DNA from: a virus
Strand: one strand, 5' to 3'
Virus record (IMG/VR): IMGVR_UViG_3300008448_007924
Span: 1 to 29,103 of that record
DNA: 29,103 nucleotides
Below are positions 239 through 13,297 of the stretch, piece by piece. A model generated the notes under the pieces. It was not told the origin of the DNA and did no database searches. It was given only the letters and a program-made list of their open reading frames with translations. Position 1 is the first letter of the stretch. Each line of letters opens with the position of its first letter. The position numbers and the translations under genes were made by a program.

Positions 239-1705
239 ATGACCAAACCTAACATCATTGTGTGGGCGCCGGACGACTTCGGCATGGATGCTTGGGCGTT
301 GTACATGGACAGGTATTCGCTGCCTGCGTACAGCTCCACCTTAGGCAACATTCCTACGCCAAACTTGGATGCGCTTGTGCAGCGTGGCGTCAAGTTCACG
401 CGAGCGTACTCGCAGCCGTTTTGCTCGCCCACACGTGCGCAGTGGATGACAGGCCGGTACGGGTTCAAGACTGGGATTGGTGCGCTCGTAGATACCAATG
501 ACCAGGCATTGCTAGACCTAGAGGTCGGGTTGGCGCGTGGACTCAAAGAAGCCACGTCGTATGCCTACAAGTGCGGAGTGTTTGGCAAGTGGCACCTGTC
601 AAACTACAGCTCGATGGGCGGCATTGCATCGCATCCGATTACAGTCGGGTTCGATGAGTTCTATGGCACGCAAGGCAACGTTGACTTCCAGGGCTACTAC
701 TTCTTCGAGGGATGGCACTCTAAGAAGACAGCTAACGGTGTCAGCGTCTCGATGGAGCGGGTTGACCGCTACTTGCCTGAGTGGACGATTGAGAAGGCTC
801 TGGAGTGGATCAACCGCCAGACCCAGCCTTGGTTTGCCTACATGCCGGTCAACTTGCCGCATGGGCCTCTGCATCGGCCACCGGCTGACCTGTACGACAC
901 AACGAGGTATGTGCTGCCGGAAGATGGCATCAACACCAACCCCACCCAGCTTACAGCTCGCACGTTCTACTCAGCCATGGTGCAGTCCATGGACACGTTG
1001 TTCGGTCGGTTCTTAGACGGCATCCCGCAAGAGACCTTGGCCAACACCGTCATCATCGTCTGGTCAGACAACGGAACCGAATACGTAGCTGACGGACTAG
1101 ACTCTGCTAAAGGCAAATACAGCGCGTACGACCTAGGCATCAACGTACCCATGGTCGTTGCTGGCCCTGGTGTCTCTACCCCTGGCCGCTCCAGCAGCGT
1201 TCTAATCTCGCCTTCGGACTTGTTCGCAACCATCGTTGACATCGGTCAAGGAAACCTCGCGCTGGTTTCCAATCCGCCGAACCACGGCACTGGGGATTTT
1301 ACTGGCACGCTCAATACCATTTCCTTCTGGGGCGTATGCCAAAGCCCTACGTACTCGGGACTAAGGACTAGTCTCCTAGCAGACAAATTTGCATACAACA
1401 TCCCACACCTCAACGCGACCCAGATTGGTTTGCGTGCGGTGGTCACGTTGTACAGCGGCAAGTACTACAAGCTAATCAGGTTCAATGGGACTGGCACTAC
1501 GTTCACTGGAATGACGCAAGGGCCGGTTGGAGTGTGGACTCCCAACGTTCGCACAGATGCTGATGCGTTCTACGATCTCGAGGCCGATCCTCGAGAAGAT
1601 GTCAACTACCTGCGAATCACCAGTCCGTTAACGTTGACTACAACCCAGAAACTTGCTTACGATCAAGCTAAAGCACAGTTCAGCTCCTTACAGACAACGT
1701 ACTGA
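239..1705 (+). CDS. Family S1 (formylglycine-dependent) sulfatase
   Basis: A 488-aa sulfatase of the alkaline-phosphatase superfamily, expected to hydrolyse sulfate esters from sugars or aryl compounds. Every hallmark of the active site is visible: the metal-binding DD pair (residues 12-13), the CSPTR formylglycine motif (Cys62) followed by TGRYG (71-75), GKWH (116-119), PHGP (207-210), SDNG (276-279), and a Lys (about 293) before the DLGINVP segment. The C-terminal FYDLEADP segment is typical of arylsulfatases, so the gene looks complete. The N-terminal half resembles the arylsulfatase A/B-like branch. No signal peptide is seen: the core begins within ten residues, so the enzyme is cytoplasmic or packaged or attached to the virion. 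Cys62 must be oxidised by a host maturase (FGE or anSME). There is no clear Shine-Dalgarno; ATG 239 is the first plausible start. It is the first gene of a tight string, one base before the next ATG. The natural substrate cannot be told. Confidence 0.93.
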   Translation: MTKPNIIVWAPDDFGMDAWALYMDRYSLPAYSSTLGNIPTPNLDALVQRGVKFTRAYSQPFCSPTRAQWMTGRYGFKTGIGALVDTNDQALLDLEVGLARGLKEATSYAYKCGVFGKWHLSNYSSMGGIASHPITVGFDEFYGTQGNVDFQGYYFFEGWHSKKTANGVSVSMERVDRYLPEWTIEKALEWINRQTQPWFAYMPVNLPHGPLHRPPADLYDTTRYVLPEDGINTNPTQLTARTFYSAMVQSMDTLFGRFLDGIPQETLANTVIIVWSDNGTEYVADGLDSAKGKYSAYDLGINVPMVVAGPGVSTPGRSSSVLISPSDLFATIVDIGQGNLALVSNPPNHGTGDFTGTLNTISFWGVCQSPTYSGLRTSLLADKFAYNIPHLNATQIGLRAVVTLYSGKYYKLIRFNGTGTTFTGMTQGPVGVWTPNVRTDADAFYDLEADPREDVNYLRITSPLTLTTTQKLAYDQAKAQFSSLQTTY

Positions 1706-1706
1706 T

Positions 1707-1913
1707 ATGGCACACGGCAAACGCGAAGGTAAGTACGAACGAGGCGAAGGTCCGCGCCATGAGCGCAGAGAAACGCGGGGCTATGAGAAAGGCGAACGAT
1801 TGCGCGAAGCGCTGTCCGCCAACACAGCCAGGCGTCGCCGCGATGCAATGAACTCCGCAATGCAGGCACCAGCCGGTGCCATGCGCATCAGCGGTAAAAC
1901 CAAAAGGAAGTGA
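1707..1913 (+). CDS. Small highly basic protein (68 aa)
   Basis: A 68-aa protein dominated by Arg, Lys, Glu and Gly, with a run of KRE/YER/HER/YEK-type repeats in the first 30 residues and an ARRRRD patch in the middle. It has no membrane segment and no recognisable domain. The start at 1707 lies one base after the sulfatase stop (TGA-T-ATG), and the same spacing recurs at the next gene, which suggests translational coupling; a frame extension upstream to 1653 would overlap the sulfatase and is unlikely. The composition suggests nucleic-acid binding or a small virion component (inference only). Confidence 0.6.
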   Translation: MAHGKREGKYERGEGPRHERRETRGYEKGERLREALSANTARRRRDAMNSAMQAPAGAMRISGKTKRK

Positions 1914-1914
1914 T

Positions 1915-2082
1915 ATGAAGGGTTCATCCTGCAAGAGTGGCGGCAAAATGTACGGTAAGGCTTCTGGTCCCAAGCGCATGTCGGCGGCGAAAGCTGGCGG
2001 TGCTGCGAAGAAGGCTATGATGCCGAAGGGCGCCAAGACTGGCAGCGCCATGAAGATGAAGAGCGGCGGCATGGGTCGCTGA
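1915..2082 (+). CDS. Small Lys/Gly/Met/Ser-rich protein (55 aa)
   Basis: A 55-aa basic, low-complexity protein with KSGGKMYGK-like and KMKSGGMG segments and an AAKAGGAAKKA stretch. Short Lys/Gly/Met-rich proteins of this style recur in phage structural regions, but no function is assigned. The start at 1915 is preceded by AAGGA about six bases upstream and lies one base after the previous stop. In-frame codons further upstream (to 1876) would overlap the previous gene without an RBS. A compact DNA-binding or virion-packaged role is possible but not shown. Confidence 0.55.
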   Translation: MKGSSCKSGGKMYGKASGPKRMSAAKAGGAAKKAMMPKGAKTGSAMKMKSGGMGR

Positions 2083-2084
2083 TC

Positions 2085-2546
2085 ATGGGCACGAAGGGCG
2101 ACGACCTAACGTCGGATGAGCCTTACGTGCCCAATATGAGTCTTGATGACGCCGACGCGCTCATGCGTTACAGCAACTCACGTGGCCGGCAAGACTACGA
2201 ACGGCGCATGCAAGGCAGAAAGCACATCTGGGTGAGACCTGATAGCAACGGCGGACAGGGCGACCAAAGCAGCTATGTCGGTGCAGCCGACACGAGCTTC
2301 CTTGAACGCATCGCTGAGATCGAGAAGAAACTCGACGCCGGCATCCCGCTCTCTGAAGCGGAAGCCGAGTACATGGTGTCACGTACGATTACGCGCATCT
2401 TGAAAACGTCCCGCCGGCCCACGCATGTGCTGAAGGCCATCGAGATGCTACAACAGGCGCGAGCCAAGAAGCTGGTCTCGAAGATGATTGAGGCGCAAAT
2501 CTCCGAGCCTAAAGAACCTCCGCCTCCGCAACTGAATCTCCCATGA
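2085..2546 (+). CDS. Hypothetical protein, mainly helical (153 aa)
   Basis: A 153-aa protein that I do not recognise. The N-terminal third is acidic and polar, followed by a Gly/Ser/Gln-rich patch. The region from about residue 70 to 140 is predicted by eye to be helical and charged (FLERIAEIEKKLDAG, then a helix rich in Arg/Lys). It ends in a Glu/Pro-rich tail with PPPP. No catalytic motif or membrane segment is visible. The ATG follows the previous stop by two bases and the stop overlaps the next start (ATGA). A DNA-binding or packaging accessory role would suit the neighbourhood but is not supported by a motif. Confidence 0.65.
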   Translation: MGTKGDDLTSDEPYVPNMSLDDADALMRYSNSRGRQDYERRMQGRKHIWVRPDSNGGQGDQSSYVGAADTSFLERIAEIEKKLDAGIPLSEAEAEYMVSRTITRILKTSRRPTHVLKAIEMLQQARAKKLVSKMIEAQISEPKEPPPPQLNLP

Positions 2547-2761
2547 ACATCCAAGCCATCCTTGCCAAGATCGTTGGTAGCTCGACCTGGTGGGTCAGCA
2601 TCCTCCTGCCCATTCTGAAAGTGCTGCTCGAGAAGATCGGCATCATCATCCCGTGGGAAGTGGTGATGGCCGGCCAAGGCGCATACGGCGTGAAGGAAGC
2701 AGCCTCGAAGCTGCAGCCTGTCGTTGCTGCCAAGCTCGCCGAAGTCAAGAAGGCGGAGTGA
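2543..2761 (+). CDS. Small hydrophobic protein, holin-sized (72 aa)
   Basis: A 72-aa protein with a hydrophobic stretch from about residue 13 to 48 (STWWVSILLPILKVLLEK, then IIIPWEVVMAGQG) and a charged, Ala/Lys-rich helical C-terminus. The size, the one or two possible membrane segments and the basic tail fit a holin or another small membrane protein, but no endolysin is found beside it, so lysis function is only a guess. Its start overlaps the previous stop as ATGA (2543-2546), which implies translational coupling. It is the last plus-strand gene before a convergent minus-strand gene, and a hairpin follows directly at its stop. Confidence 0.65.
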   Translation: MNIQAILAKIVGSSTWWVSILLPILKVLLEKIGIIIPWEVVMAGQGAYGVKEAASKLQPVVAAKLAEVKKAE

Positions 2762-2957
2762 CTTGCGGCGGTGCCTTGCGCACCGTCATGCAAGTGTTGG
2801 TCAGACTGGGATTCAGCAAACGTGGCTCCCAGTCTCCTTCCGTTCCCCAGCGCCTAGCTGCCGCATCACAGGCGTCTAGCCGCGTCTCGAATGGGCCGTA
2901 AGCCTGGCTGTGGTAGACGATGATCCACACGTCAGGTGGACGCTGCCTTTGCTGCAT
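2745..2957 (-). CDS. Hypothetical protein (70 aa), minus strand
   Basis: A 70-aa protein of unknown function. The first 45 residues look like a folded small protein (VWIIVYHSQAYGPFETR, then DACDAAARRW), and the last 15 are Pro/Thr/Lys-rich. The start is supported by GGAGG seven bases upstream on the minus strand, one of the best RBS matches in the window. The start lies inside the end of the upstream replication-like gene (26-base overlap), so the two probably share a transcript. Its 3' end overlaps the last bases of the convergent 72-aa gene and contains two inverted repeats. Confidence 0.55.
   Translation of the reverse strand: MQQRQRPPDVWIIVYHSQAYGPFETRLDACDAAARRWGTEGDWEPRLLNPSLTNTCMTVRKAPPQVTPPS
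2761..2795. terminator. Two-step hairpin at the convergent gene junction (candidate terminator)
   Basis: ACTTGC (2761-2766) pairs with GCAAGT (2790-2795), and inside it CGGTGC (2769-2774) pairs with GCACCG (2780-2785) around a five-base loop. The structure starts at the stop codon of the plus-strand gene and faces a gene on the other strand. No T-run follows on either strand, so it does not meet the classic intrinsic-terminator rule. It could be a bidirectional terminator, an RNA 3'-end stabiliser, or chance within the 70-aa gene. Confidence 0.35.
2803..2835. repeat. Nine-base perfect inverted repeat
   Basis: AGACTGGGA (2803-2811) is matched exactly by TCCCAGTCT (2827-2835), with a 15-base loop. 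It lies eight bases beyond the two-step hairpin, inside the C-terminal part of the minus-strand 70-aa gene. Together the two structures make the convergent junction unusually rich in secondary structure. No T-tract follows. Confidence 0.45.
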
Positions 2958-3855
2958 TCTTCTTCCTCCAGATCTCCCTGAGCATCTCGATGTCCTGCTT
3001 GGCCTGCTCTGAGCCTACCCACGGAGGAATCGCGTTGCGTACCCTCGAGTTCCACTTTTCCCATTCGTCGCGCAATTCGTCATCGGAGCTGCGCGGAGGC
3101 TGACCCACTGTAACGCGCTGTGCTGCGTTCTGCGGGGACTTGGCGACCAGTTGGTTCCATTGGCCCAACAAGGTGGTCAACGACGCCCTAGCGGCCATCC
3201 AGGCGTCTTGGTGGTCAAGCATCAGCTCGGCCCTGCGCTTCACCTCGTCCATCGACGCAGCCTTGAGGAGCTTGTTGGCGCTCACCGCGTCCTTGGCTTG
3301 GATCAGGTACTCGGTCCCCCGTGCCTGCTTCCAGCGTGCCTTCCACCAGTCGAGAAATTCACGCTGGGTCGCCGCCGAGACTTTTGGCTCGGCCCCCTCG
3401 GGAGAGGATGGAGAGGGGGTGAGGGGAGAGGAGTTAATAGGGGGTGTGGGGGAAAGAAGAGGAGAGGGAGAGGGGGGAGGAAGGTCACGCGATGTCACGC
3501 GTGACACGGCGTGACAGGACTTCGCATCCTTGCTGCGCTTCTTCGACTGGCGCTGCCGAGCCTCCTCCTTCGCCTGGTTCTCCGCCTCCATGACCTGCGC
3601 CACGAACGGCGACACAAAGCCCTTGTCCGTCCGAGCCAAGATGCCCGTCACCTCGGCCCATGACGCATGAAAGTCAGTCGAGCATAATCGACCGTACAGC
3701 CGCTCAAAGTACAGCGGGTCGTCGGGGATGAAACCTTGCTCGAGCTGCCACATGACCAGCTCCATGAACAGACCGCGAGCCTCCATGCTCAACGATGCAA
3801 CTTCAGGGTTGCGCCATAGTTGTGTGGTCATACTGCTCCATTTTGATTTTGCCAT
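2932..3855 (-). CDS. Replication-initiator-like protein with DUF1376-like N-terminus
   Basis: A 307-aa protein. Residues 9-105 resemble the winged-helix-like N-terminal domain of phage replication proteins (DUF1376/YdaU type): a NPEVASLSMEARGLFMEL helix, then a GFIPDD turn, then helices ending in a Lys/Arg/Gln-rich stretch. A Pro/Ser-rich linker follows (about residues 125-155), then a helical charged C-terminal part with repeated Trp residues (DWWKARWK, DEWEKWNSR). This layout of DNA-binding head, flexible linker and helical tail is usual for phage initiators that recruit host replication factors. The linker-coding DNA holds a purine tract and a symmetric repeat array, listed separately. An alternative start at residue 9 (3831) has GGAG four bases upstream, while the 3855 ATG has no SD; I keep the longer form. 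The assignment rests on pattern, not a catalytic motif. Confidence 0.65.
   Translation of the reverse strand: MAKSKWSSMTTQLWRNPEVASLSMEARGLFMELVMWQLEQGFIPDDPLYFERLYGRLCSTDFHASWAEVTGILARTDKGFVSPFVAQVMEAENQAKEEARQRQSKKRSKDAKSCHAVSRVTSRDLPPPSPSPLLSPTPPINSSPLTPSPSSPEGAEPKVSAATQREFLDWWKARWKQARGTEYLIQAKDAVSANKLLKAASMDEVKRRAELMLDHQDAWMAARASLTTLLGQWNQLVAKSPQNAAQRVTVGQPPRSSDDELRDEWEKWNSRVRNAIPPWVGSEQAKQDIEMLREIWRKKNAAKAAST
2965..2969 (-). promoter_or_regulatory. Shine-Dalgarno GGAGG deciding the 2957 start
   Basis: On the minus strand GGAGG is followed by seven bases and then ATG at 2957. This is the main reason to accept the 70-aa minus-strand gene as real and not as chance reading through the end of its neighbour. 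Confidence 0.6.
3400..3484 (+). repeat. 85-base C-free purine-rich tract
   Basis: On the plus strand this stretch has no C and only seven T, with an uninterrupted 37-base run of purines at 3448-3484 and a central TTAATA (3434-3439). It encodes the Pro/Ser linker on the minus strand, and directly abuts the GTCACGC array. Such strand-asymmetric tracts can form triplex or unwound structures; a Pro/Ser-rich linker alone would also give much of this bias. Confidence 0.6.
3484..3516. repeat. Symmetric four-copy GTCACGC array (candidate origin or operator)
   Basis: Four copies of a seven-base half-site occur in 32 bases: GTCACGC at 3484-3490 and 3494-3500, and its complement GCGTGAC at 3499-3505 and 3509-3515. 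The inner pair fuses into the perfect 14-base palindrome TGTCACGCGTGACA (3493-3506). Outer copies are separated from the inner ones by three bases on each side, so the whole array is symmetric. The copies fall in different codon positions, so a repeated peptide does not explain them. It sits inside the linker-coding part of the initiator-like gene. Confidence 0.55.
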
Positions 3856-3884
3856 AAAACTATCTTGCGTGGGACTGGTCGGCA

Positions 3885-4172
3885 GTGTACGATTCGCGTC
3901 GTAAGAGTCAAGCCCCCATCCCTAGGAAGTGCGCAGTAGGCTCGCCCATGAAAAAGCGTTTCTCGAAAAAGGTCACCTCCGCCAAGACTGGTCGCACCCG
4001 CACCGTGAAGTACGGGCAGGCTGGTTCCGAGATTCGCCCTGGCACCCCCAAGGGCGATGCCTACTGCGCTCGATCCGCCAAGATCGGTGGGGACTGGAAG
4101 TCAGACCCCAACTCTCCCAACAACTTGTCGCGCAAGAAGTGGCGCTGCCGTGGCAGCAAGTCAATGCGCTGA
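3885..4172 (+). CDS. Small basic Cys-containing phage protein (95 aa)
   Basis: A 95-aa Lys/Arg-rich protein with a C-terminal block (PGTPKGDAYCARSAKI, GDWKSDPNSPNNLSRKKW, then RCRGSKS) that I recall as a recurrent uncharacterised phage family; its function is unknown. Three Cys are present (KCAVG, YCARS, RCRGS). The reading frame begins with GTG at 3885, 29 bases from the divergent minus-strand gene and without an SD. ATG at 3948 (KKRFSKK) is an alternative start that keeps the conserved part. It may be a nucleic-acid-binding protein (inference from charge). Confidence 0.65.
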   Translation: MYDSRRKSQAPIPRKCAVGSPMKKRFSKKVTSAKTGRTRTVKYGQAGSEIRPGTPKGDAYCARSAKIGGDWKSDPNSPNNLSRKKWRCRGSKSMR

Positions 4173-4183
4173 AGTACCGTCAG

Positions 4184-4210
4184 CCAGGACTCTCTGTGTA
4201 GAGGGACTGG
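4184..4210 (+). other. Hairpin in the 83-base gap before the zinc-finger-like gene
   Basis: CCAG (4184-4187) pairs with CTGG (4207-4210) and CTCTCT (4190-4195) with AGAGGG (4200-4205) around a GTGT loop. In addition GGACTGG (4204-4210) has an exact complement CCAGTCC at 4248-4254, just before the ATG at 4256. The two pairings are mutually exclusive, so this could be a switch-like leader or a processing site. No T-run follows, so it is not a classical terminator. Confidence 0.35.
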
Positions 4211-4255
4211 CAGAGAATCTTGGCCGGCGGCGATGAGTCGTCGGCCACCAGTCCA

Positions 4256-4642
4256 ATGAGCAACAACACACAAATCTCTGACCTCGACCGTCGTGAACGC
4301 CTCCGCCAGTACATGCGCGAATATCGCCAGCGCATGAAGGAAGGCGGCAAGTGCGTGCAGTGCGCCAAGCCGGTGCACGATGACACACGCATGTGCGAGT
4401 ACCACCTCAACAAAGCACGCGAGCGCAACCGCCGCTCGTACCGCTTCAACTCACTTGCTCGCTCGCAGCATGTGTCCGCCATCGTTGATCTGCTGGAAGA
4501 GCGCCGCAAGGCTACGCAGCAGTTCAATGAACAGGTAGACCAGATGCTCAGTGGCATCGCAGAGATTGATGGTCGCATGGCCGCGATGATCAACTCAATG
4601 TTCGAGCGTGCCCAGTCGCTACAGCAGACCATTCAAAAGTGA
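4256..4642 (+). CDS. CxxC/CxxH zinc-finger-like coiled-coil protein, possible small terminase
   Basis: A 128-aa protein. It begins with a basic helix (DRRERLRQYMREYRQRM), followed by a probable zinc-binding knuckle, CVQC then CEYH separated by eleven residues, and another Arg-rich segment. The second half (from about residue 75) looks like a long coiled coil (ERRKATQQFNEQVDQML, then an SMFERAQSLQQ end). The gene ends three bases before the terminase ATPase, the normal place of a small terminase subunit, and DNA binding plus oligomerisation would fit that role, but typical small terminases lack a zinc knuckle. The frame is open back to a TTG at 4220; ATG 4256 is preferred although no strong SD precedes it. 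Confidence 0.6.
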   Translation: MSNNTQISDLDRRERLRQYMREYRQRMKEGGKCVQCAKPVHDDTRMCEYHLNKARERNRRSYRFNSLARSQHVSAIVDLLEERRKATQQFNEQVDQMLSGIAEIDGRMAAMINSMFERAQSLQQTIQK

Positions 4643-4645
4643 CAC

Positions 4646-6031
4646 GTGGCGTTCAAAGCACCCAAAGCTGCCGATCTCTCCGCGCTGCAAAAGCGCGTTG
4701 ACGAAACCAGCGAGGATGTGCAGGTACGTGACAACTACCTGTACTCGGGGCTGTTTGATCGCAACTTCGGTGTCTACGGTGACAGCGCTCCCGCGCCTGA
4801 GTTCGTTCGCTCAGAGTCAGGCGTGTCGCTTGTGCGCACGCGCCTCTCGCGCCGTGAGTGGATCGAGCGCTACTTCCCCATTCGCGACAAGGCCGGCAAG
4901 ATCCATCCACTGAAGCTCAACCGCGCACAGCGCCGGCTTGAGTCGTGGATCATGCAGATGGAGATGGCCGGCGTGCCGGTGCGCATCATCATCCTCAAAG
5001 CTCGCCAGATGGGCTTCTCCACGTACGTGCAGGCGTGCATGTTCGAGAAGCTCCTGCGCGAGAAGAACTTTCGCGGACTGATCATCGCCGACAACAAAGA
5101 CCGCTCGAAGCTCCTGCTGCAAATCGCAGATACCGCTCGTACGTCCATGGTCAAGACGTACAACCCGCAGACCAACGAACCCGTGACATGGGACTTCAAG
5201 ATGAAGTCCAAGGCAACCAGCTCACTTGTATGGACAGACCCGATCCGAGGCGAGATCCACGTAACGTCCGCAGAAACTCCAGAGCCAGGGCGGGGCGGAA
5301 CGAGGACAATGGTGCATTTGTCAGAAACCGCGCACTGGCCCGACGCAGAACGAAAGCAAGCTGGTGTGATGGCTTCTTTGCCTACATTGCCAGGTACGTA
5401 CGGATTCGACGAGTCCACCGCGAATGGCGACCAAGGGAAATTCCGTGACGACTTCTGGCGTGCGTGGAAGCAGCGCGATGTCAACCTGCTAGAGCGCAAC
5501 GATCCGTGGCACGCGGTCTTCTTCGCCTGGTGGGAACACGACGAGTACCGCTGGACGCGCACGTACGGATCCAATCGCGAGATCCCCGCCAAGCTCCTCG
5601 AGCAAGTGAATGCATCGCTCGACGAAGAAGAACGCTGGCTTGTCAAGCAAACTTACATCCGCCGTTTCACTCCTGCTGACAAGTGGGTGAGCGTAGTAGT
5701 CAAGCAAGGGCGCAAGCTGGTGTTCAACGCAGACGGATCATTCACGATCAAGACCTGTGCACCTGAGAAGAAGTCCAAGCTCGTGCGCATGAACGTTGGC
5801 CTGCAAAGCGTTGGCATCGATCAACTGCTGTGGCGCCGGCAGAAGATCCAAGACAAAGAGATCGCCAACGATCTCGCGCTGTTCAACCAAGAGTATCCTT
5901 CGCGTCCACAGCTCGCGTTCATGTCAACTGGACGGCCTGTGTTCGACATCGAGAAGATCGACTACCTGCTCGCGAAAGCTCGCGACAATCAACCCAAGTT
6001 CGTCGGCAGCATGAGAGTGGAAGCTCAATGA
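4646..6031 (+). CDS. terL: Terminase large subunit, ATPase part
   Basis: A 461-aa DNA-packaging motor ATPase. After a roughly 65-residue N-terminal extension come an adenine-binding-like LNRAQRRLE (91-99), a Walker A-like KARQMGFST (118-126), a Walker B MVHLSE with catalytic Glu227, and an ESTANG coupling motif (256-261). The end (STGRPVFDIEKIDYLLAKA) matches the linker that normally leads into the nuclease domain, yet a stop follows at 6029-6031. The nuclease is found in a separate ORF 239 bases downstream. The start is GTG at 4646, three bases after the previous stop. The stop overlaps the next start as ATGA. With portal and small terminase it would translocate DNA into the prohead; the cut would need the separate nuclease subunit. 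Confidence 0.92.
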   Translation: MAFKAPKAADLSALQKRVDETSEDVQVRDNYLYSGLFDRNFGVYGDSAPAPEFVRSESGVSLVRTRLSRREWIERYFPIRDKAGKIHPLKLNRAQRRLESWIMQMEMAGVPVRIIILKARQMGFSTYVQACMFEKLLREKNFRGLIIADNKDRSKLLLQIADTARTSMVKTYNPQTNEPVTWDFKMKSKATSSLVWTDPIRGEIHVTSAETPEPGRGGTRTMVHLSETAHWPDAERKQAGVMASLPTLPGTYGFDESTANGDQGKFRDDFWRAWKQRDVNLLERNDPWHAVFFAWWEHDEYRWTRTYGSNREIPAKLLEQVNASLDEEERWLVKQTYIRRFTPADKWVSVVVKQGRKLVFNADGSFTIKTCAPEKKSKLVRMNVGLQSVGIDQLLWRRQKIQDKEIANDLALFNQEYPSRPQLAFMSTGRPVFDIEKIDYLLAKARDNQPKFVGSMRVEAQ

Positions 6032-6273
6032 CATACAAACTTGACGGCCTCGATGATGCACTGCTCGGGTTCTCATGGGTTGGCCCCGAAGAACTTGTTG
6101 CTGTGTACAGCTACGAGAAGTGCATCGAAATCTTCATGACTCGAGATGGCATGACGTATGGAGATGCGATTGAATACATGGACTTCAACGTTGTGACGAA
6201 CCGAGATCGCAAGTCAATGCCGCTCATGGTTCACACATCGCGCTATGTCTTTGGTGACGAAGACGCCGAATGA
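6028..6273 (+). CDS. Small phage protein lying between the two terminase pieces (81 aa)
   Basis: An 81-aa acidic protein (LDGLDDALLGFSW, then AVYSYEKCIEIFMTRDGMTY and DAIEYMDFNVV). I recall similar small proteins as free-standing, uncharacterised phage genes with the same start, the central EK-I-E-I-M helix and an EY-DFN motif. It is not an endonuclease, intein or transposase by any visible motif. It overlaps the ATPase stop (6028-6031) and the nuclease start (6270-6273) by four bases each, so all three are probably translated in series. Its position exactly at the domain boundary of the terminase is remarkable; a role in linking or regulating the two halves is only a hypothesis. Confidence 0.8.
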   Translation: MTYKLDGLDDALLGFSWVGPEELVAVYSYEKCIEIFMTRDGMTYGDAIEYMDFNVVTNRDRKSMPLMVHTSRYVFGDEDAE

Positions 6274-6971
6274 ACTTCAAGTTCGAGCCTTACGCACGCG
6301 GAGGACTTCAGATCTGGAAAGATCCTGAAGAGGGCCGCAAGTATGTGTGCGCGTCCGACACCGCCGGCGGACTTGCTCGAGGTGACTTTGCTGTTGCAGT
6401 CGTGATCGAAGGCGAAACCTGCGAGATGGTCGCACGCTGGAAAGAGCGCGATGACCCGCACGTGTGGGGGCCGAAGTGCGCCTGGCTGTCGTGGTACTAC
6501 AACGAAGCGCTGCTCGCGTTCGAGACCTATCCTTCAGCCCACGGCTACACCGCTTGCATGGAAGCCATCAACAAGGGCTACAAGAAGATCTACAAGCGAC
6601 AGCGCCAGGACACGATTTCCAAACAAGTTTCCGAGGTGCTTGGCTGGCACACAAACAGCACAACCAAGCCTCTCCTGATCGACCGCATCAAGCGTGCGTT
6701 CGATGACAACTGTGTCATCTATGACGAGGAATTGCTGTACGAATTGCGCGATCAGCGCTGGAACGGCAAGGGCGAGATGGAGTCTCGCGGTCACGATGAC
6801 ATGGTAATTGCATATGGCATTGCACTCGCTGTCCGTGATCAGTCATGGACACGTGGCCTATTGCGTCCTGAGCCAGCAATGCCTAAGACGGAATCAGAAC
6901 GCTACTGGGCGCGGTACGACCAACGTCAATCTGCGCCACGACCCAAGAGGCGTCTCTTCAATGGCAACTGA
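6270..6971 (+). CDS. terL: Terminase large subunit, nuclease part
   Basis: A 233-aa protein matching the C-terminal RNase H-like nuclease of large terminases, here as its own ORF. Acidic metal-binding residues are visible in order: Asp30 in ASDTAGG with Asp39 in GDF, Glu85 in FETYPSAHG, and Asp176/Asp177 in the GHDDMVIAYGIAL helix. The start MNFKFEPYARGGLQIW continues naturally where the ATPase ORF ends, so no part of the linker seems lost. It would cut concatemeric DNA at initiation and after headful packaging, presumably in complex with the ATPase. Starts with ATGA overlap to the 81-aa gene; the last 11 bases overlap the next gene. Confidence 0.9.
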   Translation: MNFKFEPYARGGLQIWKDPEEGRKYVCASDTAGGLARGDFAVAVVIEGETCEMVARWKERDDPHVWGPKCAWLSWYYNEALLAFETYPSAHGYTACMEAINKGYKKIYKRQRQDTISKQVSEVLGWHTNSTTKPLLIDRIKRAFDDNCVIYDEELLYELRDQRWNGKGEMESRGHDDMVIAYGIALAVRDQSWTRGLLRPEPAMPKTESERYWARYDQRQSAPRPKRRLFNGN

Positions 6972-7239
6972 CATGTTGAATGGCTGGGAGTTCGGAGTGT
7001 TGGTGATGACCGCGCTGATGTGCGCATTGCCTATTGTGGCAGTGTGCTGGTCACTTGTGCGCGTAAACCTACGCTTGGCAGAGCAGAATCGCGACCTCAT
7101 GAAGGCGATGCTCGCGCTCTCAGAGAAGCCACAAGCCGCTTCGGTTGCTGGAGCTATGGAGATCACAGATCGAGAGAAGGTCTCGACTGAGCCGATTGCG
7201 CGAGCATACATGGCACGTCGCCCAGCAGGAGCGGGATGA
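6961..7239 (+). CDS. Small single-pass membrane protein (92 aa)
   Basis: A 92-aa protein with one clear membrane helix (residues about 8-29, FGVLVMTALMCALPIVAVCW), then a short amphipathic helix (NLRLAEQNRDLMKAMLALSE) and a polar tail. ATG 6961 has AGAGG ten bases upstream and overlaps the nuclease by 11 bases; ATG 6973 is a possible later start. It overlaps the portal start (ATGA at 7236). No family is recognised. Holin, superinfection exclusion or spanin-like roles are all conceivable, none shown. Confidence 0.65.
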   Translation: MATDMLNGWEFGVLVMTALMCALPIVAVCWSLVRVNLRLAEQNRDLMKAMLALSEKPQAASVAGAMEITDREKVSTEPIARAYMARRPAGAG

Positions 7240-9281
7240 TCAATACCAACGAAGGTGACTTGATTCAGATGATCGACAAGCGTGTCGGTCTGCATGAATC
7301 ACGTCTTGAAAGACTCGCACTCGAAGAGTCGTGGATCTCCAACGTCGCCTTCTGGTCAGGAAAGCAACGCTTCTTCTTCGAGCAGGGCAAGCTCTACGAC
7401 GCTGCGCTCGATAACCCCGACGAAGCGATCCAGTACAAGATCAACCTCATTCGCTCACGCACTCTCGCTGCATGTGCGAAAGTGCTCGCGGTCAATGCGA
7501 AGTTCCGCGTTCGTCCGCCCACCGGCACTAGCCGCGACCGCGAACTAGCGCAGCTATCGGAGAAGGTCTTTGACCACGTCCGCGAAGTGACGGACTTCGA
7601 TTGGCATCTCACGATGGCCACGTTGTGGAAGGCCGTGTGCGGCACTTCGTTCCTCAAGGTCCAATGGGATCCTTTCAAGGGCGAGCCGGATCGTTTCTAT
7701 CTCAGCGATGCTCAAACCAAGCGCGTGATTCCTGAGCAGATGCTCACGAAGGCTATGCGCACAGAGAAAGACCAAGCAGGTCTATTCGAGGACTATGCAT
7801 CAGGCGATATTAGCTTTAGCGTCCTGTCGCCGTTTGCCGCGTTCCAGGATAGCAGCAGCCGCGACGCGCAGATGATGGGGTGTCAGTGGTTCGCAGAGAA
7901 GCACTACGTCGACATCGACCGCATCGCGGAGAGATTCGATATCGACCCCAAAGACATCCAGCCGATGGAAGCAGACGCTGGTCTGCGCAACTACGAAGAA
8001 GCCATCGCGTTCATGTCGAACGGGTCTGGTCTGTCGCTCGTTGACTGGGCACAGCCGGAAGACAAGCGCGGCAAGCGCACGCAGTACGTTGAGCTTTGGC
8101 AGCGCCCCAGCAAGCAATACCCCAAGGGTATGCGCGTTGTGTACGCCGGTGGCCGCATCCTCAACTTGAATCGCGCTGGTGGTCTTGACAACCCCTACGC
8201 TGCTGACCGCACAGGCTGGGCGCACATCCCCTACGTCAAGGACGACTGGTGCCCTCACATGGGCCGGTTCTGGGGCGCGTCGCTGGTCGAGGACTTGATC
8301 GGACCGCAGTACTACTTGAACGCATCGCGCACGGTGATGATGCAGTTCATGGAGACGTTCGGTCTGCCCAACACCTACGTTGGCGATCAGTCCGGCATCG
8401 ACACGAACAACATGCCTGTTGGCGGTGGCCGCATCTACCAAGTCAACGAGGTGTCCTCGTTCAAGGTGCAGCATGGTCCGCCGCCGCAGATCCCGCCGGA
8501 TGTTGCGCGGTTCATGGACACGTGCGAAGCCGACCTCAACAAGGCCGCTGCGCAATCCGAGATCAACGCCGAAGGACTGCCTGGCCAGCTCCGTTCCGGC
8601 AGTGCAGTGCGTGCCATCAACGAAGAGCGCTTCATCACGCTAACCGTTCCAGGCAAGTCCACGCTGCGTACCGTTCGCGACGCCGGCAAGATCTCGCTTG
8701 CGCTCGGCAAGCTGTACTACGGCGAGAAGCGTTTGATGCGCTACCTCGGCGAAGACAACGAGTGGGTTGTGCAGGAGTTCAGCGGCGCTGATCTGCTCAA
8801 CGACTTTGTTATCGTTGGCAATCCGTCGGTTGCAGACACCGTGGCCTCTGGACGCGAAGAGATGCTCGACGCCTTGCAGGCCGGTGCATTCAACCCGCAG
8901 TTCGACGATCAGACACGAGCGTTGATCTTGAAGGGCTTGCACTACAACACGAGCGACGAGTTCATCAAGCGCACACTACAAGCCGAGCGTAACCAAGAGC
9001 GCGAGATCCAAGAGATGATCAAGGATCCGCTGAAGTACGGCGACGAAGGCTATCCCGTCATGGAATGGGAAGACCACGTCAAGGAATCCGCCGTGCTCAT
9101 CGCCTACATGTACACGCCAGAGTTCAAGCGACTCTCTGTACAGACGCAGGCGCTCATCACCGACCACTGGAAGAAGCATCAAATGTTCATCCAGCAAGCC
9201 CAGATGCAAGCCATGCAAATGGCTGAAGCAGTCAAAGGCACCCCAGGCCAAAAAGGCCAAGCGTCCCAACCTACTTTCTAA
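7236..9281 (+). CDS. Portal protein
   Basis: A 681-aa podovirus-type portal, the dodecameric ring at the capsid vertex through which DNA enters and leaves. The N-terminal part shows the usual pattern: a helix with ESWISNVAFWSGKQRFF, then KINLIRSRTLAACAKVLA, a RVRPP strand, a SEKVFDHVREVTDFDWH helix, and LWKAVCGTSFLKVQWDP. The middle holds the WGASLVEDLIGPQYYLNASRT helix common in portals, and the C-terminus is a Gln/Met-rich helix (barrel-like). Located after terminase and before scaffold, as in T7-like phages. AGGAG four bases upstream supports the start, which overlaps the previous stop as ATGA. Confidence 0.9.
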   Translation: MINTNEGDLIQMIDKRVGLHESRLERLALEESWISNVAFWSGKQRFFFEQGKLYDAALDNPDEAIQYKINLIRSRTLAACAKVLAVNAKFRVRPPTGTSRDRELAQLSEKVFDHVREVTDFDWHLTMATLWKAVCGTSFLKVQWDPFKGEPDRFYLSDAQTKRVIPEQMLTKAMRTEKDQAGLFEDYASGDISFSVLSPFAAFQDSSSRDAQMMGCQWFAEKHYVDIDRIAERFDIDPKDIQPMEADAGLRNYEEAIAFMSNGSGLSLVDWAQPEDKRGKRTQYVELWQRPSKQYPKGMRVVYAGGRILNLNRAGGLDNPYAADRTGWAHIPYVKDDWCPHMGRFWGASLVEDLIGPQYYLNASRTVMMQFMETFGLPNTYVGDQSGIDTNNMPVGGGRIYQVNEVSSFKVQHGPPPQIPPDVARFMDTCEADLNKAAAQSEINAEGLPGQLRSGSAVRAINEERFITLTVPGKSTLRTVRDAGKISLALGKLYYGEKRLMRYLGEDNEWVVQEFSGADLLNDFVIVGNPSVADTVASGREEMLDALQAGAFNPQFDDQTRALILKGLHYNTSDEFIKRTLQAERNQEREIQEMIKDPLKYGDEGYPVMEWEDHVKESAVLIAYMYTPEFKRLSVQTQALITDHWKKHQMFIQQAQMQAMQMAEAVKGTPGQKGQASQPTF

Positions 9282-9284
9282 GTT

Positions 9285-9941
9285 ATGACCGAAACAAACC
9301 CCATCAAACCCCGCAGCATGAAGCGTGAAGAACACGCTGACGCTGCATCCATTGGCGCACAGCTCAAGGAGCTGTCGTCGTCCCGCGCTGCTGTCGCTGA
9401 GAGCACGGCACGCCTAACGCCTCTGTTCCCCATCGATGGTGAGAACGAGATCGAGGCGTACAACGTCGAGGCGTTGCTCGAGAAGACGACCAAGGAGATC
9501 AAGGAGCGCACTGAAGCAGAGAAGGCCAAGGAGAACGAGATCTACATGTTCTTCGTCAAGTGCCGCGTTCCGCACCCTGAAGGCCAACCGTCGCATGGTG
9601 TGTACCTGAAGATCAACCCCAATCGTGGCGTGGTTGGGCCTAATGAGTGGAACTCGGCTTACAAGCCGAAGCACGAAGCTCCGTGGTACGAAGAGGTCGT
9701 GTGCCAAGTCTGCTTGCGCTACTACGGCCAGCGTACTCCGTTGCCGGTATCTATGATCGCCGGCAAGCCTGGCTCGTTCACGGTTGAGCCGCGTTGGCTG
9801 TGGCGTCGCCCTCGCGACACCAAGCGTGCCCAGATCGAAGGCGAGACACGTGCCAATGAACTTGCATCCCCCGTTCAGAACCAAGGCCGCAGCGAAGCCA
9901 GCGCTCGTGCAGCCGCAGCCGGATATGAGGTGATCCCGTGA
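9285..9941 (+). CDS. Hypothetical protein between portal and scaffold (218 aa)
   Basis: A 218-aa protein that I do not recognise. The first 90 residues are charged and likely helical (KTTKEIKERTEAEKAKE). The middle looks like a compact alpha/beta domain with aromatic residues (IYMFFVKCRVPHPEG, GVYLKINPNRG, APWYEEVVCQVCLRYYG), and the tail is Ala/Arg-rich. Two close Cys (CQVC) are present with no second pair, so a zinc knuckle is not evident. The GTGA overlap with the scaffold gene implies coupling. The position suggests a role in prohead assembly or a capsid component, but this is inference. Confidence 0.7.
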   Translation: MTETNPIKPRSMKREEHADAASIGAQLKELSSSRAAVAESTARLTPLFPIDGENEIEAYNVEALLEKTTKEIKERTEAEKAKENEIYMFFVKCRVPHPEGQPSHGVYLKINPNRGVVGPNEWNSAYKPKHEAPWYEEVVCQVCLRYYGQRTPLPVSMIAGKPGSFTVEPRWLWRRPRDTKRAQIEGETRANELASPVQNQGRSEASARAAAAGYEVIP

Positions 9942-10732
9942 GCGAACAACCGCAGCAACCCGCAGCTCCGATCAACTACGCACAAGACAATGCAGTCGTC
10001 CGCCTGAAGGTGGATGGCCGCGAAATGGACACGACAGTTGCCGACTTGCGCCGCAGCGCACAGATGGCATCTGCCGCAGAGAAACGTTTGCAGGAAGCGA
10101 ACTCGCTGAAGCAGCAGCATGCCGGCGCTATCGAGTTCGCCCAGCAGATGGAAACTCTGATGAGAACCAACCCCGAAGCAGCTCTTGCAGAAGTACAGAG
10201 ACGTGCGTCTCAACTGCACGGGCGCCCGATCGGGGCTGGACAAACCGATGCAAGTTTCGATGACTCCGATCTGGATCCTGTCACCAAGCAGACCAGATCA
10301 GATCTCATGCGAATCCAGAGCCAGCTCGCGGATCTCACAAAGTTCCGCGACGAGTTGACCACCAAGTCGCACATGGATCGCATCAAGTCCGTGGTTGGAG
10401 CAATGCCGCTATACCAAGGCAACGCGAAGGCACGGGAACAAGCGGAGGTTGTGGTCGCGGCTTACCAAATGGCTAACCCCAATAAGCCGCTGGAGGAGGT
10501 TGCTGCCGAGCTGCACGCGATGCAAGCCGACATGCTTTCCGACTTCATGTCTTCGCAACGTGACCAACGGGCTGCAAACACATCCCAACTAGCTGGTATC
10601 CCGCCTACAGCCGGCACCCCTGGCCTCACTAGCAACGCTCCTCAGAAGCCTTCCGCCAAGGAGCTACAGAGTGGACAGTGGCGCTCAGGCTTTAAGAACT
10701 TCGTGAGCCAGCTAAAGAACGGTGTGCAGTAG
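9938..10732 (+). CDS. Capsid scaffolding protein
   Basis: A 264-aa acidic, helix-rich protein with features of podovirus scaffolds: a Gln/Pro-rich N-terminus, a long coiled-coil-like stretch (ADLRRSAQMASAAEKRL onward), a flexible Pro/Thr/Ser linker (about residues 215-240), and a short basic C-terminal helix (WRSGFKNFVSQLKNG), comparable to the coat-binding end of P22-type scaffolds. It lies directly before the major capsid gene. Start is GTG at 9938, overlapping the previous stop as GTGA. Assignment is by composition and position. Confidence 0.8.
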   Translation: MSEQPQQPAAPINYAQDNAVVRLKVDGREMDTTVADLRRSAQMASAAEKRLQEANSLKQQHAGAIEFAQQMETLMRTNPEAALAEVQRRASQLHGRPIGAGQTDASFDDSDLDPVTKQTRSDLMRIQSQLADLTKFRDELTTKSHMDRIKSVVGAMPLYQGNAKAREQAEVVVAAYQMANPNKPLEEVAAELHAMQADMLSDFMSSQRDQRAANTSQLAGIPPTAGTPGLTSNAPQKPSAKELQSGQWRSGFKNFVSQLKNGVQ

Positions 10733-10758
10733 CTCACAACCAAACTAAGGACTGATCC

Positions 10759-12171
10759 ATGTCTGTGACAGCCGACAACGGCGTAAAGTACGCATCAGGA
10801 CAAGCGTACTACGACCATCTCCTAACTAACTACTTCCTTCAACTCCTGCCGGACGCCCGCAACAACTCGACTGTGCTCTTGAGCATGATCGACAAGCGTC
10901 CGACCCAAGCGGTCTCGGGCCGTTTCATCGTGTTCCCCGTGCGGCACGGTCGCTCGACCGGCCTCAACAACGTGGGCTACGGTGGCATCATCCCTGACCC
11001 TGGTTCGCAGAATGCCAAGACCTACTCGACCATCACCCGCAAGGGCATGGCGCGTATCGCTTTGGACGGCGACACCATCCGTCACGGTAAGACCAACGGT
11101 GGTGCCTATGCCGAAGCGATGCAGATCGAGATGGAAGGCATCGTGGACGACATCATGATCGACCGCGCTCGTCAGGTCCACAATGACGGCTCGGGTCGTG
11201 TCGCTGAAGTCAAGTCAATCTCTACCCCCAACATTACCCTCAGGGTGAACTCGTCGATTGAAGGCGCTGCGACCACTCGCGGTGCCGGCACGCTCGACAA
11301 GTACATCGAAGTGGGCATGCGCTTGGCTGCGTTTGACAACGCACCTAGCGGTACTTTGGGTGCGCAGGCCTTTGCCACAAGCACTTACCAAGTCTACGTG
11401 ACCTCGGTCACGACCAGCGGAGCTGACGTGGTCATTCAAGTCAGCGCCACACCTGGTGGCTCGGCTTTGGCAATTTCCGGCGGAACGCTTGCTACGGGCC
11501 ATTGGCTTGTGCGTTGCTCGTCCTCAACTGGCGCAGCGACGAACCGTGCCGACTCTGGCTACCGCAACGAGATGATGGGCATCGCTGGCGTGTTCAGCGA
11601 CGCAAACGTCTTCGATGGCGTTGGCCTTAGCGGCTCGCAGCAGTCTGGCTCTGAAAGCGTTACGGACGTTGCTGCGAGCTTCCAAGGTCTTGCCTCGACG
11701 CAAGACTTCAACAAGGCAATCGTGCTCGACAACGGTGGCGCGGGTAACCGTCCGCTGACTGAAGAGCTGATGCAGCAGGCCATCTCGGACGCCGAAGAAA
11801 TCAACAACGCCAATGTGGAGTTGCTGCTCTCGTCGTTCCCGACCTACAACTCGTACGTCAAGTTGCTGACGCCGGACAAGCGTTACAACAACACGCTCGA
11901 GTTGGCCGGTGGCCACAAGACGCTGACCTTCAACGGCATTGGCTGGGTGAAGGATCGCTTCTGCTACCAGAACCGCGTGTACTTCATGGCCTTGGACCAG
12001 TTCCACATCCTCGAGACTGCCCCGCTCCAGCCGTTGGTTGGCGGTGACGTCACGACGTGGGAGCGTCTCCAAGACCTCGACAAGTACTGGCGTGGCTGGA
12101 CGTGGGAAGACAACATGATCGTGGAAGTCCGCAACCGCACGGGTGCAGTTCTGACCGAACTGGCATCCTGA
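10759..12171 (+). CDS. Major capsid protein (HK97-like fold expected)
   Basis: A 470-aa major capsid protein by position and pattern. The N-terminal region (YYDHLLTNYFLQLLPDARNN, RFIVFPVRHGRSTG) and the EGIVDDIMIDRARQVHNDGSG helix resemble podovirus capsid proteins. A beta-rich insertion of about residues 150-270 follows, with Thr/Ser-rich strands, then GYRNEMMGIAGVF and a helical C-terminal half ending in a WEDNMIVEVRNRTGAV strand. This matches the usual axial-domain insertion of this capsid class. AAGGA seven bases upstream supports ATG 10759. Preceded by scaffold and followed by a gene with an even stronger RBS. Confidence 0.9.
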   Translation: MSVTADNGVKYASGQAYYDHLLTNYFLQLLPDARNNSTVLLSMIDKRPTQAVSGRFIVFPVRHGRSTGLNNVGYGGIIPDPGSQNAKTYSTITRKGMARIALDGDTIRHGKTNGGAYAEAMQIEMEGIVDDIMIDRARQVHNDGSGRVAEVKSISTPNITLRVNSSIEGAATTRGAGTLDKYIEVGMRLAAFDNAPSGTLGAQAFATSTYQVYVTSVTTSGADVVIQVSATPGGSALAISGGTLATGHWLVRCSSSTGAATNRADSGYRNEMMGIAGVFSDANVFDGVGLSGSQQSGSESVTDVAASFQGLASTQDFNKAIVLDNGGAGNRPLTEELMQQAISDAEEINNANVELLLSSFPTYNSYVKLLTPDKRYNNTLELAGGHKTLTFNGIGWVKDRFCYQNRVYFMALDQFHILETAPLQPLVGGDVTTWERLQDLDKYWRGWTWEDNMIVEVRNRTGAVLTELAS

Positions 12172-12178
12172 AAGGAGG
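12171..12178 (+). promoter_or_regulatory. Very strong Shine-Dalgarno AAAGGAGG
   Basis: AAAGGAGG starts on the last base of the capsid stop codon and lies six bases from ATG 12185. It is close to a perfect anti-SD match, the strongest in the window, and suggests that the gene it serves is made in large amounts, as a capsid decoration or fibre protein would be. Confidence 0.75.
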
Positions 12179-12184
12179 ACGTCC

Positions 12185-13297
12185 ATGACTTCAACCTTCA
12201 ACCGAAATGCGGTTGCAAAAGGCGGCTATCGAGGATCTCTGCGAGAGTCTTGCAGAATCACGATGCCGGCTCATGCTCCGCAAGGACTTGTCAGGACGGC
12301 AACTTGGGACTCCCTGAAGTCTGTAGAGACAGCAGGGGTCGTTACTACGGCAACGATTAACCAGCCCATTCTGTTGAACTTGTCATTGGTGGCGCAATCA
12401 ATTGCGTCTCCTCTTGGCAAGCGCATCGGAACGACTGCTAACTCTACGTGGTACATGGCCGTCCCGTCGACTGTTGACTTCACCGTCAGCAACAACTTAG
12501 ACACGTTTAGCTACACCATTGAAGGAACCGATGCTTTCGGTGATCCTTTAACGGAAAACGGCGCTAAAACCGCAACAACCTCTGCTGTCTGCCGTTCGAT
12601 GTTTGTGTTCTCCACGATCACTCGCATCACGGTTACTCCGACTGTTGCTACCGGCGGCACCTCGACGGCTACTTTGGCTGTTGGACGTGACATGCTTGCA
12701 GCTCCAGCAGGGCAGCGGTTCCACCTTCCGTTCAAATTGGACACTGCGAGTTATGTCGTAGGACTCCAAATGATGGAGGTGCCCGTTGGCTGGACTACAG
12801 ATCTGTCAATGAGCCTGTCTCGTACCGTCTCTACGGCTACCACAACCATCACTTCAACAACTGTTGTTGATGGCGGTGCAAACCCGTGGGGTGCTGGCAT
12901 TACCTTAGACTCCAGCTTCGTCGGCCAATATCTTTGGACCGCATCCGCTTACGGCATCATCACAGCCGTAAACGACGGAACAAAGACGATTACGGTCGGT
13001 GGTGGCTGGGTCTCTCGTGCTGACCCGAATACAACGGCTACGACTCCTTCCAACGGAACTACAGTGCAGGTGACTTACACGTACCAGAAAGTGGTGCGTG
13101 GCATCCAAGGTGATGCAAGTCAACCGCAAAACGCTGACACAGCAATTGCAAACAACAACGTGTATGCCGTGACACCTAATATCCTAGCTCGTACTGGGGT
13201 AGGGGCGTTCATTTCATCTCAGTTGTTTACAACTGCTGGTGTCGGAAATCCTGAAGCTCGTTGGATTATCGTTCCAGGCGGGTTCTTGGATAGATGA
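12185..13297 (+). CDS. Thr-rich beta virion protein, probable capsid decoration or head fibre
   Basis: A 370-aa protein that is almost entirely short beta-like stretches rich in Thr, Val, Ser and Gly. It has no catalytic motif, signal peptide or membrane helix. Residues about 60-190 look like one beta domain (SLVAQSIASPLGKRIG on), and about 220-300 hold a TTVVDGGANPWGAG ... YGIITAV ... TITVGGGWVS module common in phage virion proteins; a similar module is present in the giant tail protein. Its location right after the capsid gene, and a near-perfect SD, suggest an abundant outer-capsid protein. Function not proved. Confidence 0.7.
   Translation: MTSTFNRNAVAKGGYRGSLRESCRITMPAHAPQGLVRTATWDSLKSVETAGVVTTATINQPILLNLSLVAQSIASPLGKRIGTTANSTWYMAVPSTVDFTVSNNLDTFSYTIEGTDAFGDPLTENGAKTATTSAVCRSMFVFSTITRITVTPTVATGGTSTATLAVGRDMLAAPAGQRFHLPFKLDTASYVVGLQMMEVPVGWTTDLSMSLSRTVSTATTTITSTTVVDGGANPWGAGITLDSSFVGQYLWTASAYGIITAVNDGTKTITVGGGWVSRADPNTTATTPSNGTTVQVTYTYQKVVRGIQGDASQPQNADTAIANNNVYAVTPNILARTGVGAFISSQLFTTAGVGNPEARWIIVPGGFLDR

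Follow-up and report, generated by a model that had tools for sequence, protein, structure and literature searches.

Introduction

The DNA-packaging motor protein of phages, the large terminase subunit (TerL), is nearly always a single polypeptide. Two-gene large terminases are known from phages of Arthrobacter cluster AY (BillyTP) and from the Gordonia Nyceiraevirus group (Dogfish, Nyceirae) (PMC11920828), and terL is split by an intron or an intein in the Jug phages, in ICP1 and in Campylobacter phage IBB_35 (PMC12363816, PMC10448857, PMC3322345). Here we analyse a virus DNA of 29,103 nucleotides (IMG/VR record IMGVR_UViG_3300008448_007924; this whole stretch is referred to as the window), where the ATPase half and the nuclease half of TerL are encoded by separate ORFs with a small gene, S, in between (Table 1).

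Table 1. Genes and slot borders of the packaging region in the window
Feature	Coordinates	Strand	Evidence and remarks
140-aa ORF upstream, in small-terminase position	4220..4642	+	
TerL ATPase half	4646..6031	+	GTG start, 461 aa; phrog_2 terminase large subunit, E=1.4e-9
ATGA stop-start overlap ATPase/S, left slot border	6028..6031	+	sequence
81-aa cargo gene S	6028..6273	+	phrog_13182, E=6.6e-14
ATGA stop-start overlap S/nuclease, right slot border	6270..6273	+	sequence
TerL RNase H-like nuclease half	6270..6971	+	233 aa; phrog_38407, E=2.9e-14; phrog_24361 terminase, E=2e-7
Portal protein, P22-like, downstream	7236..9281	+	PF16510, E=9.9e-13; phrog_156, E=6.9e-28

ATPase and nuclease of the large terminase are encoded by separate ORFs

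The Walker A motif KARQMGFST as well as the HLSE and STANG motifs are located in the ATPase ORF and align with those of fused TerLs. The Walker B/catalytic segment reads MVHLSE, with S-E instead of D-E, a feature found in many of the aligned relatives, too. In the nuclease ORF residues D30, E85, and D176/D177 occupy invariant or near-invariant acidic columns of the alignment with fused relatives. These alignments confirm the first-pass annotation, which had placed the Walker and coupling motifs in one ORF and the RNase H-like acidic residues in another. A profile built from 18 fused relatives and both halves matches T4 gp17 (3ezk) across both domains with E=5.8e-54, and the same family profile also matches structures of TerL nucleases. 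Pfam matched neither the ATPase half nor the nuclease half, and an AlphaFold2 model of the ATPase, calculated from 8 sequences, reached a pLDDT of 43.6 and was set aside. The genome is incomplete; no second TerL was found in the window or in the ~17 kb beyond it that are covered by a sister contig.

In a fused relative (L057) the linker reads GRPVF followed by VGNLVEKDGRVQFVEQKKGYLSIW, whereas in the window GRPVF is followed by FVGSMRVEAQ and a stop, and the nuclease resumes with MNFKFEPYARGGLQIW. From GRPVF to IW the split pair has 34 + 16 = 50 residues and the fused protein 47, so no part of the linker is missing. Judged from this spacing, the break sits in the presumed linker turn and no residues have been lost, in agreement with the earlier proposal that the split occurs at the normal interdomain linker. 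The new ends, GSMRVE in the C-terminal strand of the ATPase and MNFKFEPY in the N-terminal strand of the nuclease, are invariant among the aligned members of the clade.

S fills the gap between the halves with an ATGA overlap at both joints, just as the first-pass annotation had described. Four-nucleotide overlaps (ATGA, GTGA or TTGA) form all ATPase/cargo and cargo/nuclease joints, and an overlap of the same kind is present in every relative spanning the junction; the single longer overlap lies between the two cargo genes of one contig (L015). This arrangement suggests that translation of the terminase halves and their cargo is coupled. Such overlaps are common in the window genome (five of the adjacent gene pairs examined), and by itself the overlap therefore says little about selection.

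Several features surround the terminase genes. Family searches with the 140-aa upstream ORF gave no match above the curated cut-off. The interval between nuclease and portal (6973-7239) encodes a small protein that probably spans the membrane with its one hydrophobic stretch, and a look-alike is found 3' of the nuclease in a very distant contig (L090, 5293-5598); a hydrophobic small protein after the nuclease is possibly a conserved component of the packaging region. The window further carries a gene for a 488-aa sulfatase (239-1702, plus strand; PF00884, E=4e-37), an enzyme encoded here in a phage genome. The sulfatase region aligns with L290 and L282 at ~74% identity over positions 1-1189, with 1190-1697 unaligned. 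Close relatives are likewise unaligned at 11327-11628 and 12178-13295, with flanks that are 96-99% identical, and the latter segment coincides with a 370-aa gene 3' of the capsid gene.

S belongs to a conserved family of phage proteins

S matches phrog_13182 over the conserved core ADGFDDAIIG...YDYDKC...RDGM...EFNVVGAYVGE.TP (alignment of 51 members). The family comprises phage proteins mostly 75-125 aa in length; relatives were found at no fewer than 452 places in IMG/VR and in 44 phage records, mostly from Bacillus phages. From the 51 family members AlphaFold2 predicts a small alpha/beta fold with a pLDDT of 86.8. All matches of this fold in the PDB had E>0.4, and among viral structures the fold matched uncharacterised phage proteins only; searches with PADLOC and NCBIfam gave no functional assignment. 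Between close contigs S differs by 1-3 SNPs, which cause zero amino-acid changes. The phrog_13182 match, the conserved family with its confidently predicted fold and the silent SNPs together argue that S is a real gene. As the first-pass annotation had stated, S is a free-standing phage gene lacking intein, homing endonuclease gene (HEG) or transposase features; family searches placed it in phrog_13182 and yielded neither HEG nor intein.

In one contig (L187, 1171-1695) an S-family domain follows in frame after an apparent fragment of a DnaG-type zinc-finger primase; this joint could reflect a fusion or else an artefact of the contig.

The slot between the terminase halves is polymorphic

For a comparison of the slot we used 20 IMG/VR contigs spanning the junction, that is, the window and 19 further contigs of the same clade, an estuarine phage group. 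Amino-acid identities within the clade range from 81 to 100%, and the next relatives abruptly drop to 35% or less. ATPase and nuclease have an ORF each in every one of the 20 contigs, which reach down to 77% nucleotide identity, and in none are both domains on one polypeptide. The slot is empty in five contigs (L001, L002, L004, L011, L024), where the halves are consecutive and still in different frames. It contains S alone in the window, L025 and L026; S together with a 275-aa PAPS-reductase-like gene in L007 (PF01507; phrog_424, 4.9e-53); a 71-aa gene, K, which is unrelated to S and for which family searches gave no known family, in L009 and L010; and a K homologue plus an S homologue (~40% identity) in L015. 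The remaining eight contigs (L012, L013, L014, L018, L019, L021, L022, L023) carry a gene for a C5-cytosine methyltransferase of 345-525 aa (phrog_116; PF00145 at ~1e-54 in the three scanned). The methyltransferase is also present in L032 and L035, which end before the nuclease and are not counted among the 20. Of the three-gene order pointed out in the first-pass annotation, the split recurs throughout these other phages, and the complete order ATPase-S-nuclease is present in the window, L025 and L026.

L001, L002 and L004, contigs 98-99% identical to the window, lack S although both of their terminase halves match those of the window at 99-100% protein identity. All three are collinear with window positions 1698-11327 at 97-98% identity, each over the part it covers, and within this region the sole difference in gene content is a 241/242-bp insert (6028-6269). 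The boundaries of the insert are exact, and it is flanked by a 5-nt direct repeat, AATGA, with its left copy at 6027-6031.

Plotted on the trees of ATPase, nuclease and both combined alike, slot content of the 20 contigs changed state at least seven times, a small count for which recombination between the shared flanks may matter. In three subclades, empty contigs have filled neighbours that are 96-99% identical to them. Both halves are under purifying selection within the clade, with low dN/dS values of 0.08-0.25 (ATPase) and 0.02-0.13 (nuclease). The GC content of S is 49.6% as compared to 56-58% in its neighbours.

Some further observations concern the cargo and the contigs carrying it. The PAPS-reductase-like gene (L007, 2136-2963) also matches PADLOC SspD (4.6e-16), a component of DNA phosphorothioation defence, and could be involved in counter-defence or DNA modification. 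The variable length of the methyltransferase among close contigs stems from a repeat-like region that separates the catalytic part from a conserved C-terminus and looks as if target-recognition modules had been shuffled. Three contigs (L003, L008, L016) end at the slot or at most 100 bases away, as expected if mixed populations are polymorphic at this site and assemblies break there. Among GTDB genomes no relatives (prophages) could be confirmed.

Beyond the clade, the ATPase profile recovered 70 relatives, 66 of them with a fused TerL, and the nuclease profile recovered 56, of which all full-length ones are fused. The distant contig L090 is a single case in which the ATPase is followed by a 51-aa ORF with an ATGA overlap and then by the nuclease, a split that apparently arose independently of that in the window clade. 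Searching for further relatives of this split returned L090 itself as the sole close match.

Discussion

TerL of this clade is split at its linker turn, and we consider it highly probable that two coupled genes replace one chain and that the stop-start junction serves as a permissive slot for cargo. The split is fixed in the clade, and ATPase and nuclease subunits would together do the job of a one-chain TerL. Both halves would assemble non-covalently, perhaps re-forming the linker strands FVGSMRVE and NFKFEP, which are part of one chain in fused relatives. Genes of other function, i.e. the methyltransferase of anti-restriction type, the PAPS-reductase-like gene and small proteins, have entered, left and replaced one another at the slot, and the (A/G/T)TGA overlaps around each cargo would allow the nuclease still to be translated by termination-reinitiation. 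Exchange of cassettes may occur by recombination, either between the flanks, which are highly similar, or at short TGA-containing repeats.

The first-pass annotation had regarded S as the third part of the packaging motor, i.e. as a required subunit or a linker between ATPase and nuclease. The position of S and its ATGA overlaps, its conservation and well-defined fold, and the small ORF in the independent split of L090 are all in line with this idea. It is nevertheless very unlikely and we abandon it, as S is missing from three contigs with near-identical halves and replaced by unrelated genes in others. Moreover, S homologues are widespread in phages away from the terminase, e.g. among the small genes of Bacillus phage Grass, and the 51-aa ORF of L090 matches no family. 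As the slot is empty or differently filled in close relatives, S is exchangeable cargo and not a required motor part, leaving a motor of at most two parts. Removal of the insert as a group I intron or an intein, restoring one TerL chain, is the normal cause of split terL in the Jug phages, ICP1 and IBB_35 (PMC12363816, PMC10448857, PMC3322345), but is highly improbable here: the window contains zero Rfam introns, the insert is entirely coding, and family searches detected no intein or HEG domain. Where the insert is precisely absent, as in L001, a stop codon still separates two different frames, so splicing out S cannot yield one polypeptide. The natural empty sites, which retain two ORFs, exclude this outcome, which the first-pass annotation had held to be decisive against its view.

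A further scenario is that terL was once split by a HEG that later gave way to other cargo, and that HEGs acting in trans still drive turnover of the slot. HEGs are enriched beside terminase genes (PMC10448857), HEG sites are often located in essential genes, as is the slot, and in E. coli phage Bas95 a HEG comes immediately after a related TerL. As none of 22 slot contigs contains a HEG, with S, K, the PAPS-reductase-like gene and the methyltransferase all checked, and as the borders are start and stop codons and not a shifted target site, we regard this history as unlikely. A frameshift or chimera introduced by sequencing or assembly is exceedingly improbable: all contigs are metagenomic and three of them end at or near the slot, yet the same layout was assembled independently in many samples at 77-100% nucleotide identity, and contig ends at this place are consistent with real polymorphism of the population. 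The error that might have joined the ORFs according to the first-pass annotation need not be invoked, since the split recurs in 20 independent contigs. It is possible that empty-slot contigs, and only these, make a rare ATPase-nuclease fusion product by -1 frameshifting, the nuclease frame being open for 87-584 codons upstream; against this, the junction has no obvious slippery heptamer and the cargo-bearing states would break the fusion.

Taking the two-gene terminase with its cargo slot as the preferred reading, the likeliest role of S, which we put forward tentatively, is that of a moron, i.e. a counter-defence or host-takeover protein, because it shares the slot with the methyltransferase and the PAPS-reductase-like gene. 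It is conceivable, if rather doubtful, that fission turned the terminase into a permanent plug-in site. Any ATG...TGA gene would fit the (A/G/T)TGA word in any frame, keeping the halves intact and coupled, and counter-defence or metabolic genes could be swapped repeatedly without a recombinase of the phage's own. The locus would be natural evidence that ATPase and nuclease of the gp17 type need no covalent link, and an example of a gene fission point serving as slot for counter-defence-type genes. Natural phages that are near-isogenic but have an empty slot, S, or S plus PAPS reductase, together with empty/methyltransferase pairs, form a test set for the effect of an inserted gene. For annotation they call for caution, as a split terL is not necessarily due to an intron or a frameshift.

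Comparison with known systems

T4 gp17 has the same motifs in the same order, on one chain as opposed to the two ORFs and the intervening gene found here. The terminases of cluster AY and Nyceiraevirus are similar in that ATPase and nuclease are separate genes in TerL order (PMC11920828) and, like the window clade, they have fused relatives (Streptomyces phiSASD1, Brevibacterium AGM phages). Since such two-gene terminases are annotated, a single chain is the rule for large terminases but no strict part of their definition. They differ in belonging to another terminase lineage, in having adjoining halves with a 17-20 nt overlap or a 10-nt gap and nothing in between, and in showing no cargo exchange in the listed records. 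The Jug phages, ICP1 and IBB_35 likewise have terL in fragments around other sequence, but splicing at the RNA or protein level rejoins these into one chain, whereas here the empty site keeps two frames. As in the window, an essential gene is divided by a small ORF, there one without known homology, in the case of another gene described in PMC10580990, and the passage on it reports no empty or alternative cargo states. Morons, auxiliary genes and HEG-islands are also non-essential genes of foreign composition within essential late operons (PMC10448857); in contrast to these, the slot in the window interrupts a sequence that relatives have as a single gene, contains no HEG and has 4-nt stop-start borders. 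In the literature we found no description of a two-gene terminase in which cargo is exchanged repeatedly at the point of fission. Precedent exists for the split terminase as such; new is the cargo slot at this point, with its seamless stop-start borders.
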